Source of the DNA: Streptomyces mobaraensis NBRC 13819 = DSM 40847
GTDB taxonomy: Bacteria > Actinomycetota > Actinomycetes > Streptomycetales > Streptomycetaceae
DNA length: 64,000 nucleotides
NCBI RefSeq assembly: GCF_017916255.1
Contig: NZ_CP072827.1
Span: 3,224,001-3,288,000 of the forward strand
Direction of reading: 5' to 3'
Shown here: positions 1 to 5,183 of the stretch, one piece after another
Position numbering within the stretch: the first letter of the stretch is position 1
Layout: every line of letters begins with the position of its first letter
Made by a program: the position numbers and the translations under genes
The notes under the pieces: model-generated
The model's input: the letters and a program-made list of their open reading frames with translations, nothing else
What the model was told of the DNA's origin: nothing
The model's database searches: none

Positions 1-370
1 GCTGAACAGTGCCGGCCGACATCAGGAGGCCCTGGCCCAGTTCGAAGAGGCACTTCCCGTCTTCCGCGACCACCGGCAGCGCATGTGGGAGGGCTGGACG
101 CTCTTCCGCATGGCCGAGGTGCACCTGGCCACCCACGAGTACGCCCGCGGTGCCGCCCACGCGGAACAGGCGCTGACGCGCATCAGGGGGATCAGCGGGG
201 AGTGGCGCCGGGGCAGCATCCTGCTGACGCTCGGGAGGTGCCTGGACGCCCTGGGACAGCCGGGCCGAGCCCGGGCCTGCTGGGCGGACGCGCTCACCGT
301 CTTCGAGCAGTTGGGGCACGAGCACGAGGCACGGACCGTCCGGGACCTCCTCTCCCTGGCCACGGTCTGA
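1..370 (+). CDS. TPR-containing regulator, C-terminal end (partial, SARP/AfsR-like)
   Basis: The gene enters from the left edge (codons start at base 2) and stops with TGA at 368-370, leaving about 122 residues. They form helical repeats typical of tetratricopeptide repeats: a helix ending QFEEALPVFRD, then a pair around GWTLFRMAEVHLATHEYARG, then AHAEQALTRIRG and RGSILLTLGRCLDALGQPGRA, ending ADALTVFEQLGHEHEART. This arrangement is usual for the C-terminus of large actinobacterial regulators of the SARP/AfsR or LuxR-LAL type. The DNA-binding and NTPase domains, if present, lie outside the window, so the exact class is inferred. It is the only regulator immediately upstream of the DDH peptide genes and points the same way, so it may control them. 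Confidence 0.6.
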   Translation, partial: LNSAGRHQEALAQFEEALPVFRDHRQRMWEGWTLFRMAEVHLATHEYARGAAHAEQALTRIRGISGEWRRGSILLTLGRCLDALGQPGRARACWADALTVFEQLGHEHEARTVRDLLSLATV

Positions 371-672
371 GTACGGCCCCGGCCGGAACGCCGTCCGGAG
401 CCGGTAGCGTTCCCTCTCAGGGGCGTGCCGTCGCCAGCCGGAGCGTGCCGGAGCCCCTGAACGCGCCCGTTCATCGAACGTTTATCGCGACCCGTCACCC
501 TTCACGTATCGATCCGTCGCGTCGGGGGGCAGGCGGGTCGTGGGTGTGGCCTCACCAACAGGACGGTTCAGGGTCCTGTCAACCCGTCCGGCGGTCTTCG
601 GGGGAGTCGCCGGGCGGGTTCTGCATCCCCGTTGTACCGCACGACTCGCACTCAGTAACGGAGTTGAACGAC
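371..672. other. Intergenic region upstream of the first DDH peptide gene
   Basis: About 300 bases between the TPR gene and the first DDH peptide. I see no convincing gene. The stretch around 470-515 is relatively AT-rich for this chromosome (runs such as cgaacgtttatcg) and could hold the promoter of the peptide gene, but no clean -35/-10 pair can be assigned. Confidence 0.4.
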
Positions 673-837
673 ATGAGCGAGGACAAGAAGCTCAAACCCA
701 CTCTGCCCACACCACAAGACGACCACGCGGGCAGCACGACCGGCCTCGCGGCACAGCCGAGCAAGCCCAACGCCAAGGGCGCCGGCAGTGTACCGGCGGT
801 GGTTCTCGACGACCACGCCGGTTCCGAGCCGGTCTGA
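673..837 (+). CDS. Small DDH-motif peptide A (54 aa, no signal peptide)
   Basis: ATG at 673 is preceded by GGAG at 660-663 (9-nt spacing), and the gene ends TGA TGA. The 54-residue product starts MSEDKKLKPTLPTPQ and carries the motif DDHAGS twice, at about residues 16-21 and 46-51, separated by a Gln/Ala/Pro/Lys/Gly-rich linker. It has no hydrophobic segment, so unlike its two downstream relatives it shows no export signal. A 10-bp perfect hairpin follows directly. I do not recognise a family. The shared DDH[A/S/G] motif and adjacency link it to peptides B and C. It could be a peptide precursor processed by enzymes outside the window, a cytoplasmic partner of the secreted peptides, or an uncharacterised small protein. 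Confidence 0.6.
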   Translation: MSEDKKLKPTLPTPQDDHAGSTTGLAAQPSKPNAKGAGSVPAVVLDDHAGSEPV

Positions 838-843
838 TGAACC

Positions 844-875
844 GGCCGTCCGGCCGGGGCACCGACCGGACGGCC
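844..875 (+). terminator. Hairpin terminator after DDH peptide A
   Basis: Perfect 10-bp inverted repeat: ggccgtccgg (844-853) and ccggacggcc (866-875) with a 12-nt loop, starting 6 bases after the tandem stop codons. It lacks a T-tract, as is usual for Streptomyces terminators. Confidence 0.6.
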
Positions 876-1126
876 TCCTCGGGCGGCATCGCACGGAATG
901 GCCGCCACCCGCGGGGCTCGTCGGCCAGGGGGTACCAGCGCACGGGGAACGGGGGCTCCGGACGCATGGCGGCCGCCGAGAGCCGGCATCGACGACACGG
1001 AGGGGGAGCCGTCGGTGCCGGCTCCCCGTCGTTCGCGGCGGCTCCCGTTCCACCGGCCCGAAGCGACCAGCCAAGGGCCGCGCAGTACAGATCCCAGGTA
1101 ATCGACACGAGCAAGAGGAGTCACCC

Positions 1127-1330
1127 ATGGCTCGCGCCACAGCCCACCGCACCCGCAGACTGCTGGCCGCGTTCGCGATAGCCGGCGCCGCGGCCGCCCT
1201 CGGAACGCTGCCGGCCGCGGCGGACGACCACGGCGGCAGCTGGCCGACGGTGGCCCAGTCCGGCGGGGCGGCCGCGGACGACCACTCCGGCGCCACGCCC
1301 GCAAGCATCGACGAGCACCCCGTCGGCTGA
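1127..1330 (+). CDS. Secreted DDH-motif peptide B (67 aa)
   Basis: ATG at 1127 has a strong Shine-Dalgarno (AGAGGAG, 1114-1120). The 67-residue product begins MARATAHRTRRLLAAF, a basic n-region followed by a hydrophobic core (AIAGAAAALGTLP), and a predicted signal-peptidase site AAA|DD at residues 31-33. The mature peptide would therefore start Asp-Asp-His-Gly-Gly-Ser. A second DDHSGA follows after another AAA triplet, and the end reads IDEHPVG. The signal peptide is clearly related to that of peptide C (shared AIAGAAA.LGT), so the two are paralogues. The mature N-terminus NH2-Asp-Asp-His has the X-X-His pattern of ATCUN Cu(II)/Ni(II) sites. That function is inference. No known family recognised. 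Confidence 0.75.
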   Translation: MARATAHRTRRLLAAFAIAGAAAALGTLPAAADDHGGSWPTVAQSGGAAADDHSGATPASIDEHPVG

Positions 1331-1348
1331 CCGTTCGGCCGTTCCCCC

Positions 1349-1380
1349 GGGCGACCCTCTGTGTGTCAGGAGGGTCGCCC
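1349..1380 (+). terminator. Hairpin terminator after DDH peptide B
   Basis: Perfect 10-bp inverted repeat gggcgaccct (1349-1358) / agggtcgccc (1371-1380), extended by one C-G and one T-G pair, 18 bases after the stop of peptide B. Confidence 0.65.
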
Positions 1381-2028
1381 ATCGGCGTTCTGGCACCGAT
1401 TCACGACCGATGACACCGCCCGCCGCCCTGCGGACACTCCGCTCCGCGGGCACGGCGGCGCCGTCCCCGTCGGGCAATCGCCGTTCACACCGCCCATCCG
1501 TCCGCGCCACCCGGGCCCAGCCCCGCGTGGTCATCCCCGCCGAACCCCCGCCGCCCCCGGCCGTCCACCCCGCAAGGCCGCACTCCGCCACCCCGCATCG
1601 CGTCACCCCCGATTCGTCGAAGCCGCCGGACCCGGCGCGACGTCGCCGCGCCGGTGGCCGCCCATGCCGAACGCACCTGTCGACGAGACAAGCGGGTACG
1701 TTGACGGTCAGGGAGACCGGTCCGTCCTTGCTGACCAGTACCTCCATTCTCGGAGGCGGCTCTGACATCGGCCTTGTCCGGTGCCCTCGTTCGGAGGGTT
1801 TCCAGTGGACCGATGAACCACGGACGCCCGAGCGCGGTCACGGCCTCGGCCACGCGCGCGATCGCCGCGCCGCATAAGGAGACCGATCGCCACAGGTGCG
1901 CCCAACTCGTCCTGCATACCGCTTGGTTGGTGGCTCGGAGCCTCGCTTTCGCGTCACCTCTCTGCTTACACTCACCGCACCAGTAACACCTCTGATAACA
2001 GAAGTCACACAAGCACCGGGAGACACTC
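1381..2028. other. Long intergenic region between DDH peptides B and C
   Basis: About 650 bases without a convincing gene; frames open on both strands lack the codon pattern and ribosome sites of the neighbours. The last 130 bases are less GC-rich, and TACACT at 1967-1972 is a possible -10 box for peptide C, without a clear -35. TTGACG at 1701-1706 is an isolated -35-like hexamer. The length suggests complex regulation of peptide C, a small RNA, or a decayed gene; the sequence does not decide. Confidence 0.35.
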
Positions 2029-2319
2029 ATGTCACACGGCAGCCTCAGCCGGACGAAGAAGGCCCTCGCCGTCGTCGCGATCGCCGGAGCCGCCGCGGTC
2101 CTCGGCACGGGCTCGGCGCTCGCGGACGACCACAGCACCGTCATCGGCGCCAAGCCGGGCGTCGCCGCCGCCCCGTTCGACGACCACAGCACGGTCGTCA
2201 CCGGGACGAACGACGATCACAGCACGGTCGTGACCGGCACCAACGACGACCACAGCACCGTCGTCACCGGCACCAACGACGACCACAGCACCGTCGTCAC
2301 CGGCGGCCACTCGGACTGA
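2029..2319 (+). CDS. Secreted DDHSTV-repeat peptide C (96 aa)
   Basis: ATG at 2029 follows a CGGGAG ribosome site. The product opens MSHGSLSRTKKALAVVA, a Sec-type signal with core AIAGAAAVLGT and cleavage site ALA|DD at residues 30-32, so the mature chain would start Asp-Asp-His-Ser-Thr-Val. After a first DDHSTVIGAKPG segment come four near-identical 11-residue units, DDHSTVVTGTN three times and a final DDHSTVVTGGH, giving five DDHSTV motifs in 64 mature residues. There is no Cys, Trp or Tyr, and no catalytic domain. Low complexity and acidic/His content suggest metal binding or a structural repeat at the cell surface. This is inference; I recognise no family. Paralogous to peptide B by signal peptide and position. 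Confidence 0.8.
   Translation: MSHGSLSRTKKALAVVAIAGAAAVLGTGSALADDHSTVIGAKPGVAAAPFDDHSTVVTGTNDDHSTVVTGTNDDHSTVVTGTNDDHSTVVTGGHSD
2179..2310 (+). repeat. 33-bp coding tandem repeat (4 units) in peptide C
   Basis: Units at 2179-2211, 2212-2244, 2245-2277 and 2278-2310, each starting gacgaccacagcac or a one-base variant. They differ mainly at third codon positions, so the protein repeat is better conserved than the DNA. Confidence 0.9.
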
Positions 2320-2348
2320 CCCCCACCCGTCCCCCGAGGACGCATGAC

Positions 2349-2384
2349 GGAGGGGCCCGCCGCGTGTACGCGGTGGGCCCCTCC
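2349..2384. terminator. Bidirectional hairpin between peptide C and the PQQ kinase
   Basis: 16-bp stem with one G-T wobble: ggaggggcccgccgcg (2349-2364) and cgcggtgggcccctcc (2369-2384), loop tgta. It lies between convergent genes and can serve both. Confidence 0.8.
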
Positions 2385-2417
2385 TCGTTCCGCGGCCCCC
2401 AGGGCCCGGCGCTCAGC

Positions 2418-4898
2418 TCACCGCCGCGCCTGCCCCGTCCCCTTCGCCGCGTCCAGGGCGTAGACGCAGCGGTCCTTGCTGCAGGCGTAGACCACGCCGC
2501 CCGCGGCCAGGGGGGTGCCGGTGATCTCGCCGCCGGTGGCGAGTTTCCAGCGGAGTTGGCCGCCGGTGGCGTCGAGGGCATAGAGGCAGTGGTCGGCGGA
2601 GCCGAAGTGGACGCGGCCGTCGGCGACGACGGGGGAGCCGACGATGTCGCCGCCGGCGGCGAAGCGCCAGCGGGGGGTGCCGGTGACGGCGTCGAGGGTG
2701 TAGAGGGCGCCGCCGCTGCCGAGGTGGACCAGGCCGTTGGAGACGAGGACGGGCTCGCTGGACTGGCGGGCCTCGGTGGCGATGCGCCAGCGCTCCTGGC
2801 CGCCGGCGGCGTCGAGGGCGTAGACGGTGCCGAGGTAGTCGGCCGCGTAGACGCCGCCGTTGCCGACGGCGGGCGGGCTGAGGAAGACCGCGGGGGCCTC
2901 GAAGCGCCAGCGGACGTCGCCGCGGGCGGTGTCGATGGCGAGCAGGCGGGTGCCGGCGGCGACGTAGACGACGCCGTCGGGCGCGGCGTGCAGCCGGACG
3001 GGGACGCCGCCGCAGGAGCCGGTGTCGCCGACGGGGTAGCTCCAGCGCTCGGTGCCGGAGCGGGCGTCGAGGGCGCGCAGCCGGGCGTCGGCCCAGACGA
3101 AGACGGTGCCGTCCTGGACGACCGGGCCGCAGTCGGGGGTCTCGAAGTCGGTCTGGAGGCCGGAGGTCTCCCAGAGGAGTTCGCCGGTGGCCGCCTCCCA
3201 CGCCTGGGCGCCGCCGCCGCGGGTGCCGGTGACGACCGTGCCGCGGTCCACGCCGAGCGAGTACACCCAGCCGTCGGTGGACAGCCGCCAGCGCTCGCCG
3301 CCGTCCGCCGCGTCGAGGGCGTACAGCGTCGGGCCGTCGGAGGCGTGTATGCGGCCGTCCGCCACGGCCATGGCCCAGGCGACGTCCCGCGTCTTGAACT
3401 GCCGCCGCCCACTGGCCACATCGAGCGCGTGCACCTCGAAGGAGGTGACGTACACCAGGTCGCCGGCGACGACGGGCGTGCCCCAGACGTCGTTGGACAT
3501 GCGGAACCGCCACGGCCGCCAACGGGCCGGGTCCACCGTCGCGTTGGCGACGGGATCGGGCGCCGCGGGGGCCGCGGTGCCGCCGGGCGGGCGGACCCAG
3601 CCGGTGGCGGTGCCGGCCGCCGAGGGCGCGTACGGCTCGCGGGCGTCGGCGACGCGCGGCCCGGGGCCGATCGGCAGCTGCGCGCCGGAGAGCCGCACGG
3701 AACCGTCGTCCGCGTAGGCGGGCGCGGGCGCGGCGGCGTGCCGGCCCTGTCCCGGAGCGGAAACGGGAGCGGAAACGGGCGCGGGGACGGGAGCCGGGGC
3801 GGAGGCCACGGCCGACGCCCCGCGCGGGTCGGGCGCCCCGGCGGGCCGCCCGTGGTGCGGCCCCGTCGCCCGGGCGTCGCTCCAGCTCGGCGGCTGGGCG
3901 GCGCGGGAGGGGTCGTACGGGGGCTCGGCCGGCGGCCGGGCCGGGGGCGGCGGGACGGCGGAGCGGCCGGAACGGCCCCGGGCGGGGGCCGCGGCGGGCC
4001 GCTGCCCGGCCCGGCGCCGCTCGATGAGCGAGACGGCGTCGGGCGGCAGCCAGGCGGACGCCGTGCCGCTGTCGTCGCCCCCGCCGGAGGCGAAGAGGTG
4101 CGGGCCGAGCTGGGCCTGGAGGTCGGCCGGGCTGGGCCGGTGCTCGGCCGCCATCTGCATACAGGAGTCGATGAGCGGGCGCAGCTCGTCGGGCAGGCCG
4201 GAGAGGTCCGGGCCCTCGCGCAGCAGCATGAAGACGGTCTCGACCGGGTTGGCGCCGTGGAAGGGCGCGTGGCCGGTGGCGGCGAAGACGAGGGTGGAGC
4301 CGAGCGAGAAGACGTCGCTGGCGCCGGTGACGCTGCGGGAGTCCCTGGCCTGCTCGGGGGACATGTACGCGGGCGTGCCGACGGCCACGTTGGTCATGGT
4401 CAGCCGGGTGTTGGAGACGCCGGAGGCGATGCCGAAGTCGATGACGCGCGGTCCGTCCTCGACCACCAGCACGTTCGACGGCTTGAGGTCGCGGTGGACG
4501 AGCCCGGCGCCGTGGATCGACTGGAGCGCCTCGGCGATGCCGGCCGCGAGCCAGCGCACCGCCTGGGCCGGGAGCGGCCCGCACTCGTTGATGATCTCTT
4601 CGAGGGAGGGCGCGGGGACGTACGCGGTGGCCAGCCAGGGCACGGCGGCCCGCGGGTCGGCGTCGACGACGGCTGCCGTGTAGAAGCCGCTGACCGCCCG
4701 GGCCGCTTCCACCTCACGGGTGAAGCGGACGCGGAAGAGCTGGTCCTCGGCCAGTTCCGTACGGACCGTCTTGATCGCGACCCGTCGGCCCGACGCCGAG
4801 CGGGCGAGATAGACCAGTCCCATGCCGCCGGCCCCGAGCCGGCCGAGCACCTCGAACGGGCCGATCCGTCTCGGGTCGTGCTGTGTGAGCTGCTCCAA
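2418..4898 (-). CDS. Ser/Thr protein kinase with C-terminal PQQ beta-propeller
   Basis: About 826 residues. A complete Hanks-type kinase domain occupies residues 1-290: glycine loop [10 protein letters not shown], Lys43 in [12 protein letters not shown] around 135-142, DFG at 154-156, and [14 protein letters not shown] activation segment. A Pro/Ala-rich linker (about 300-480) follows, then a run of PQQ/WD-like propeller blades ending in repeats such as [14 protein letters not shown]. No 20-residue hydrophobic segment is visible between kinase and propeller, so it looks cytosolic, unlike many receptor kinases. The start is uncertain: I chose TTG at 4898 ([13 protein letters not shown]), 11 nt after GGGGAGG; GTG at 4910 is in frame but overlaps that site. 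Probably senses a ligand through the propeller and phosphorylates regulators. Confidence 0.9.
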
Positions 4899-5183
4899 CT
4901 GGCCTGCCACCTCCCCGTGGGGGCTCGAAAGGATTGTTCCGGCCCCGTGCAGCGTCTCACCGCGAATTATCCCGGGGTACGCCCCCTGATTCTCCCTGGC
5001 CCGGGCGGTGGTTGCGAACCCGGGTCGTGCTTCGGCGTGTCCATGCCGAAAGCGGAAGTTCCGCCCCCGCACTACCGGCCTTTCCCAGCCGTCACAGTGG
5101 GCTGTGCCGCCTCTCCACGCGCAGGAGCACCAGGCGTTCAGGGCGGCTCACGGCCGCGCCCGGCCCCTCGGGCCCCCGGCCCC

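Follow-up and report, generated by a model that had tools for sequence, protein, structure and literature searches.

This locus raises the question of whether three consecutive small genes, whose predicted products carry repeated Asp-Asp-His (DDH) motifs, form one system, and which system that might be. The three open reading frames (ORFs) reported in the first-pass annotation of the window (the whole 64,000-nucleotide stretch of DNA analysed) were confirmed in their places, with two DDHAGS in gene A, one DDHGGS and one DDHSGA in gene B, and five DDHSTV in gene C.

Three small genes between afsR and afsK

All three lie between afsR and afsK in a Streptomyces near S. huiliensis, whose locus (L009) was the closest named one to the window's afsR region. 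The features were as follows.

2..370, + strand: 3' end of afsR, C-terminal TPR part (NF053617, truncated piece of 122 aa, 139.8 bits)
469..490, + strand: afs box, the AfsR operator, heptamers GTTCATC and GTTTATC, spacing 11 bp (13 of 14 matches)
673..837, + strand: gene A, afsS, 54 aa, two DDHAGS at 718-735 and 808-825 (ORF, position, afs box, S. coelicolor comparison)
844..875, + strand: hairpin 3' of A (z -2.65)
1127..1330, + strand: gene B, predicted secreted companion, 67 aa (ORF, signal peptide); signal 1127-1222 with a rule-based cut-site prediction, mature start DDHGGS at 1223, second motif DDHSGA at 1277
1349..1380, + strand: hairpin 3' of B (z -2.58)
2029..2319, + strand: gene C, predicted secreted companion, 96 aa (ORF, signal peptide, two homologues); signal 2029-2124, mature start DDHSTV at 2125, other copies at 2179, 2212, 2245 and 2278
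2344..2388, + strand: strong hairpin 3' of C (z -5.55)
2418..5072, - strand: afsK, Ser/Thr kinase with PQQ-type repeats (NF053615 AfsK, 1507.3 bits, cutoff 1300, from residue 58), its true start probably inside this ORF

The upstream gene, described at first as a TPR-type regulator, is afsR; the complete gene of the window's strain (976 aa, L008:3440-6370) lies mostly to the left of the window, and the full L009 protein scored 1616.8 bits against the AfsR equivalog cutoff of 1430. Each small gene has, as first noted, its own hairpin and its own GGAG-type ribosome site (GC3 of A, B and C was 0.80, 0.90 and 0.96, respectively). A simple scan that requires a T run found no + strand terminators, and no afs box was found upstream of B or C. 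Neither Pfam nor NCBIfam assigned a family to A, B or C; the single Pfam match, to C, had E 0.8.

The earlier statement that no described family shows this pattern does not hold for gene A, which is AfsS, the already known 'sigma-like' antibiotic activator, in its usual place behind an afs box. The identification follows from the place after afsR, the afs box and the S. coelicolor-type counterpart. Gene A encodes a small hydrophilic protein directly after afsR and repeats a short Asp-containing motif (the two DDHAGS), the whole repeat unit not being conserved. An afs box with at least 11 of 14 matches, at most 300 nt from the afsR stop, was present in 203 of 217 loci, compared with one of 217 after shuffling. 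In an S. coelicolor-type genome (L243, whose AfsR TPR shows 100% identity with that of the solved S. coelicolor AfsR across 193 residues) the AfsS position encodes a protein of 63 aa in which DNHMP occurs three times, and AfsS has been described as having 63 aa and three repeats (PMC2267785). In work by Calvelo and colleagues, actinorhodin was driven by afsS expressed alone (PMC8290100), so AfsS must also act downstream of AfsR.

Loci for comparison came from three sources: the best 80 of 144 named loci collected; a genus sample, with AfsR in 196 of 199 Streptomyces genomes (E<=1e-40); and a family sample, with AfsR in 30 of 61 genomes and 10 of 17 genera (E<=1e-30). Part of the loci was taken from each of the latter two, and the named and unnamed sets overlap (L025/L147, L015/L166). 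Removal of L084, which lacks a TPR, from the 218 loci collected left 217, six of them with fewer than 1100 nt after afsR. AfsS was assigned automatically in 179 loci and by hand in 26 of the remaining 38, giving 205, with 12 excluded. Nineteen cores were set by hand and two corrected, by eye and with the companions already seen, before the statistics, and a few automatic cores may be misplaced. Identical pairs were dropped from the companion test (49 to 47) and only down-weighted in the MI analysis (Neff 108); they were retained in core counts, residue tables and trees.

The five-residue AfsS core took 83 different forms among these 205 loci, 43 of them occurring once and the commonest being DNHAS (18), DNHAT (14), DMHAT (8) and DIHAT (8). 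It is DDHAG in the window strain, DNHMP in S. coelicolor, and DNWSN, DNWVN or DTWGN in other genera, where it often stands as one copy close to the C-terminus. Motif copies within one AfsS mostly agree. His occupies core position 3 in 171 of the 205 cores and is absent from 34, with relatives carrying DNAMP, DNWSN or DHYAS, and Asp-Asp-His as such is not the conserved feature. As the motif departs from DxH in some loci, the initial AfsS finders overlooked many genes.

Secreted companions and the AfsS core

Genes B and C are, as judged from their signal peptides, predicted secreted companions that share the AfsS motif. Their signal regions are related, as proposed earlier (74% DNA identity over 72 nt, including the motif start), and gene A has no signal. 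In both B and C an AxA-type signal end lies immediately 5' of the first DDH; in C, the last four DDHSTV are spaced 33 nt. No published description of B or C was found.

Companions were sought across the loci with a finder that scored the start, the ribosome site, the signal peptide, position, length and composition and ignored the motif; it gave a small bonus when D, E, N or A follows the cut site, which cannot bias the comparison towards the own genome. The finder identified companions downstream in 49 of 217 loci and a signal-only HMM, partly trained on the finder's companions, in 52 (53 in all), which is only about a quarter of loci (49-52/217). The mature companion usually starts with the motif right after AxA and often also ends with it. 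Given that these signal-found companions share the motif, and that an AfsS-type gene lies 3' of afsR in 205 of 217 loci, the earlier proposal that the genes belong together was supported; homologues are clustered and not scattered singly. A profile search for companions returned 163 relatives; among the 120 matches listed, the protein names were 'hypothetical' or 'uncharacterized', with a few 'secreted protein' or 'lipoprotein'.

Gene C in its present form is rare, with two homologues among 5.8 billion clustered proteins. One of these lies in L010, 1575 nt after afsR, and an additional C-like gene then follows. A search of the window strain's own genome with C (E<=1e-5) found only C itself and B, and no other convincing DDH genes were found in that genome; two weaker signal matches there led to a single larger secreted protein. 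Outer companions (the second and third at a locus), as with gene C, seem to drift to a repeated motif of their own: the one in L013, about 1045 nt after afsR, has DNHMT, which differs from the AfsS core, and those in L010, about 1575 and 2135 nt after afsR, have DDHVTGTN and DDHVM/DNHVG, neither being the AfsS core. Separately, DFHQT occurs ten times in the companion of L070 (about 543 nt 3' of afsR), whose neighbouring AfsS has DHHQT; this is a strong copy expansion of the secreted form.

SCO4424, annotated as a 'possible secreted protein' (PMC3897704), was considered as an S. coelicolor companion and rejected, as its place holds a reverse 177-aa ORF without the motif and the profile was negative. 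This ORF (L243:608-1141, - strand), between afsS and afsK, has a signal-like start, is His/Asp/Gly-rich, and is presumed from its place to be SCO4424. The companion profile gave no match in the S. coelicolor-type genome at E<=1e-3, a search of incomplete sensitivity, as the window genome's own B and C scored 5.3e-4 and 8.3e-3. Among 20 other genomes with no companion at the locus, the profile found matches in three and none in 17.

The companion motif was compared with the AfsS core of its own and of other genomes in 47 distinct pairs, one companion per locus (here B, not C). The own-genome core scored 3.79 of 5, compared with 2.25 for the others, and none of 20,000 shuffles reached the observed sum. 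When the comparison was with the nearest relative by NOD whose core differed, the own core matched better in 22 of the 30 pairs with NOD sequence and worse in none, with eight ties. The match between companion and core also persisted given NOD in a partial Mantel test (r 0.42, 0/5000). Three pairs matched poorly (L156, L200 and L209, each 2 of 5). In the 44 pairs with at least three matches, core position 4 accounted for 27 of 48 AfsS-companion mismatches, as if the AfsS and companion forms must stay distinguishable.

Asp-x-His at a free N-terminus resembles an ATCUN copper/nickel site, and the prevalence of His at core position 3, together with the Asp-Asp-His with which mature B and C would begin, might suggest that the motif binds metal. 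However, the cores that lack His, including the Trp and DNAMP types, still match between AfsS and companion, and metal binding leaves the covariation with AfsR described below unexplained, making this explanation barely credible.

Covariation of the AfsS core with the AfsR sensor

Mean pairwise divergence among 79 full AfsR proteins was 0.236 in the SARP region, 0.137 in NOD, 0.470 in the arm and 0.441 in the TPR, and the identities between the window strain and L009 were 97.8, 98.6, 64.2 and 67.3%, respectively. A sensor so much more variable than SARP and NOD could be one that diversifies like an immune receptor, with AfsS and its companions as decoys or self markers, and STAND proteins do include immune receptors (PMC10936776). 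AfsR is, however, a transcription activator present in 196 of the 199 Streptomyces genomes sampled, neither an effector domain nor a phage link came up in the other analyses, and we regard an immune role as very improbable.

The borders of the variable segment in the window strain are sharp relative to L009, which has no gene C. DNA identity falls at the NOD/arm border, is 54-75% across TPR, afsS and B, and returns in afsK, the downstream border of the cassette, to 92-100% in 200-nt steps. The gap between B and C (1381-2028, 650 nt), which is far longer than that between A and B and has no assigned gene, contains the sole part of the cassette with 90% identity to L009, a single 200-nt stretch.

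Within this segment, sensor and motif differences were related. Across 76 loci, and given SARP+NOD, core difference was correlated with divergence of the TPR (r 0.59, 0/2000) and of the arm (r 0.41, 0/2000), compared with weak or no correlation for SARP given NOD (r 0.14, 10/2000) and NOD given SARP (r -0.08). At SARP+NOD divergences of 0.05-0.075, median TPR divergence was 0.119 in the 12 pairs sharing a core, 0.302 in the 28 pairs that differ at one core position and 0.331 in the 16 pairs that differ at more. Beyond 0.2 the medians were alike (0.487, 0.479 and 0.485), so the link between core and TPR is visible in closer relatives only.

A contiguous variable segment with sharp borders implies that its parts share a history, and linkage by itself might explain these relationships if the 3' half of afsR, afsS and the companions were replaced together by recombination and diverged for unrelated reasons, with the motif and the sensor having no contact. 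Covariation at single residues bears on this alternative. In a set of 204 loci (Neff 108), AfsR positions 770, 692, 777, 776, 923, 827 and 835 covaried with core positions 2-5 at a level with the strongest intra-receptor pairs; the top couplings (770 and 692 with core 2, 777 with core 5, 776 with core 4) would rank second to third among 62,128 such pairs. In a full-length control of 76 loci, columns with z>4 numbered 8 of 270 in SARP, 4 of 348 in NOD, 27 of 159 in the arm and 42 of 199 in the TPR.

The coupled pairs are chemically sensible. Arg923 accompanies T at core 5 in 102 of 102 cases, S in 29 of 29 and P in none of 49 (P goes with Met, Trp, Thr or His at 923), and the companions follow the same rule, with Arg923 in none of 14 with P and in 21 of 22 with T or S. 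At core 2, N or S is found mostly with Lys692 plus an acidic residue (Asp or Glu) at 770; T, I, V or M mostly with hydrophobic residues at both positions; and K with Asp770 (5/5) plus Leu or Val692. His at core 3 is accompanied by Tyr835 (163/170), and Trp by Ala, Ser, Thr or Val827 (7/7).

On the SARP+NOD tree, co-changes exceeded expectation for 835/core 3 (12.8 against 1.3), 827/core 3 (9.8 against 1.2) and 886/core 5 (11.9 against 1.9); those of 770/core 2 were not above chance (6.9 against 8.1 expected), and those of 736/core 2 and 923/core 5 were not significant. On the cassette's own tree, 770/core 2 (15.2 against 3.7) and 886/core 5 (9.2 against 1.4) led, and 8 of 1188 tests passed Bonferroni correction. 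Columns with co-changes at p<1e-5 on this tree numbered four for core 2 and two for core 5; core 4 had none at this level and core 3 none at p<1e-4.

Eleven AfsS residues outside the core (N-terminal 3-8, core-3 to core-1, core+3 and core+4) served as internal controls. Their z values were at most 4.9, and two of them had one co-change column at p<1e-5. Values were 7.0-11.3 for core 2-5, 8.9 for core+1, 5.5 for core+2 and 3.4 for core 1, which had 12 changes. The covariation is concentrated on core 2-5 and the next one or two residues, and a run of some six residues would not stand out in this way through linkage by itself, given that control residues equally linked to the sensor are weakly coupled to it. 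As some couplings also exceed expectation on the cassette's own tree, and as the covarying pairs make chemical sense, we consider linkage without contact unlikely.

The published view of AfsS differs from that of a ligand: it is said to resemble sigma domain 3 (PMC2267785) and to appear to interact with RNA polymerase (PMC4415409), and B and C could then be unrelated secreted relatives of the repeat. The AfsS paper reports no obvious DNA-binding site (PMC2267785), and a core with 83 forms in 205 loci that tracks the AfsR sensor is unlike what constraint from a conserved polymerase would be expected to produce. As a substitute for a ligand role this explanation appears a little less likely still than linkage, and a sigma-like role and a role as AfsR ligand could coexist.

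An AlphaFold2 (AF2) model of the L009 arm and TPR (50-row alignment) was all helical, with pLDDT 94.3 and pTM 0.90. Its best PDB matches were LGN TPRs, mostly in peptide complexes, and Rap with pheromone (Rap-CSF, rank 26-27) and kinesin light chain TPRs were also among the matches; on this model, the AfsR arm-TPR would be a TPR superhelix of the peptide-binding type. Groove positions, which were assigned after the top columns had been seen, made up 11 of the top 30 coupled columns, with 2.9 expected (overall p 0.005), an enrichment that was not significant relative to other A-helix positions (p 0.075).

A candidate peptide-receptor cassette

The locus has the gene order (afsR, afsS, reversed afsK) and the afs box in common with the AfsK-AfsR-AfsS system of S. 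coelicolor, which differs in its motif type and sensor, in the reverse ORF between afsS and afsK, and in that a companion was not found. A receptor part and a peptide gene that vary together between conserved flanks are also a feature of agr and comQXP-type cassettes, whose receptor is a membrane kinase and whose peptide is modified. In contrast, the AfsR locus has a cytosolic receptor, and no enzyme for peptide modification was apparent in the afsR-afsK interval.

The RRNPPA systems of the Bacillota (Rap-Phr, PlcR-PapR, NprR, Rgg, ComR-ComS) also pair a TPR-fold receptor with an adjacent small exported propeptide that has a short motif, and in ComR-ComS receptor and peptide co-diverge (PMC8605241). 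An adjacent propeptide with an export signal is represented here by B and C, and elsewhere by the companions of 49 of the 217 loci, none being found in most loci. AfsR does not have the RRNPPA architecture, being SARP-NOD-arm-TPR and not of the HTH-TPR or Rap type (PMC10936776); unlike RRNPPA systems, it has a putative cytosolic multi-copy ligand, AfsS, beside the exported one, and its host belongs to the Actinomycetota. By one description, Bacillota typically signal with peptides and Actinomycetota with small molecules (PMC10075063).

In FxSxx-COOH and HaaA systems, AfsR-related NOD-TPR proteins are encoded close to small proteins that carry a short motif at one terminus (PMC7159879), and the L009 AfsR (L009:7001-9922) matches NF041717 and NF040586, far below their cutoffs. 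Those systems differ in that maturation proceeds via radical-SAM enzymes or peptidases. The STAND-TPR relatives of HaaA cyclophane and FxSxx-COOH systems may read short peptides too.

Starting from the gene identities, the afs box, the AfsS-companion match, the AfsR covariation and the cassette borders, all established computationally, we conclude that the 3' half of afsR, afsS, B and C probably constitute a specificity cassette. We consider the motif the probable ligand of the orphan TPR sensor in AfsR: the residue-level covariation makes it quite likely that AfsR binds the AfsS motif, and it appears reasonably likely that the companions bind the same site. Taken as a whole, the locus would rather probably be a peptide-receptor specificity cassette within afsR-afsS-afsK antibiotic control. 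That the companions act as extracellular signals is plausible, at slightly below an even chance. The fullest reading, in which the AfsR TPR is the receptor for species-typed ribosomal peptides, with AfsS as the ligand inside and companions (in about a quarter of loci) as those outside, in a pheromone system controlling antibiotics, is somewhat more tentative again.

Under this mechanism, a motif peptide of about six residues (from AfsS, and from B and C where present) would sit in the AfsR arm-TPR groove and set the state of AfsR as a STAND-type switch. NOD and TPR are reported to restrain AfsR until ATP releases it (PMC10936776), and peptide binding could tune how readily it is released. Since AfsR activates afsS via the afs box, binding of AfsS would be feedback on its own activator. 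Cutting of B and C by signal peptidase would make the motif the new N-terminus, and the resulting peptides would serve as signals beyond the producing cell, probably once trimmed and taken up through an oligopeptide importer, and would report neighbours of the same motif type. The receptor half and the peptide genes changing together would then give rise to species- or strain-specific types.

In the literature, whether an inducer binds the AfsR sensor is left open (PMC10936776) and the fate of AfsS is stated as open (PMC4415409). No report of a ligand for the AfsR TPR, of AfsS motif variation or of secreted AfsS-like peptides was found among the titles and abstract starts listed, a search that covered few subscription papers and probably not the original AfsS work. 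What is new here is the comparative part, namely the core types, the companion matching and the sensor covariation.

AfsR and AfsS are established points of control over antibiotic production, and the match between motif and sensor residues makes both the sensor's ligand and the fate of AfsS directly testable with synthetic peptides. If the proposed mechanism is correct, AfsS would be expected to work best with AfsR of its own type, and silent gene clusters might be activated externally by peptides matched to the species. The system would then be a genetically encoded peptide pheromone with a STAND-type receptor, of an architecture distinct from RRNPPA.
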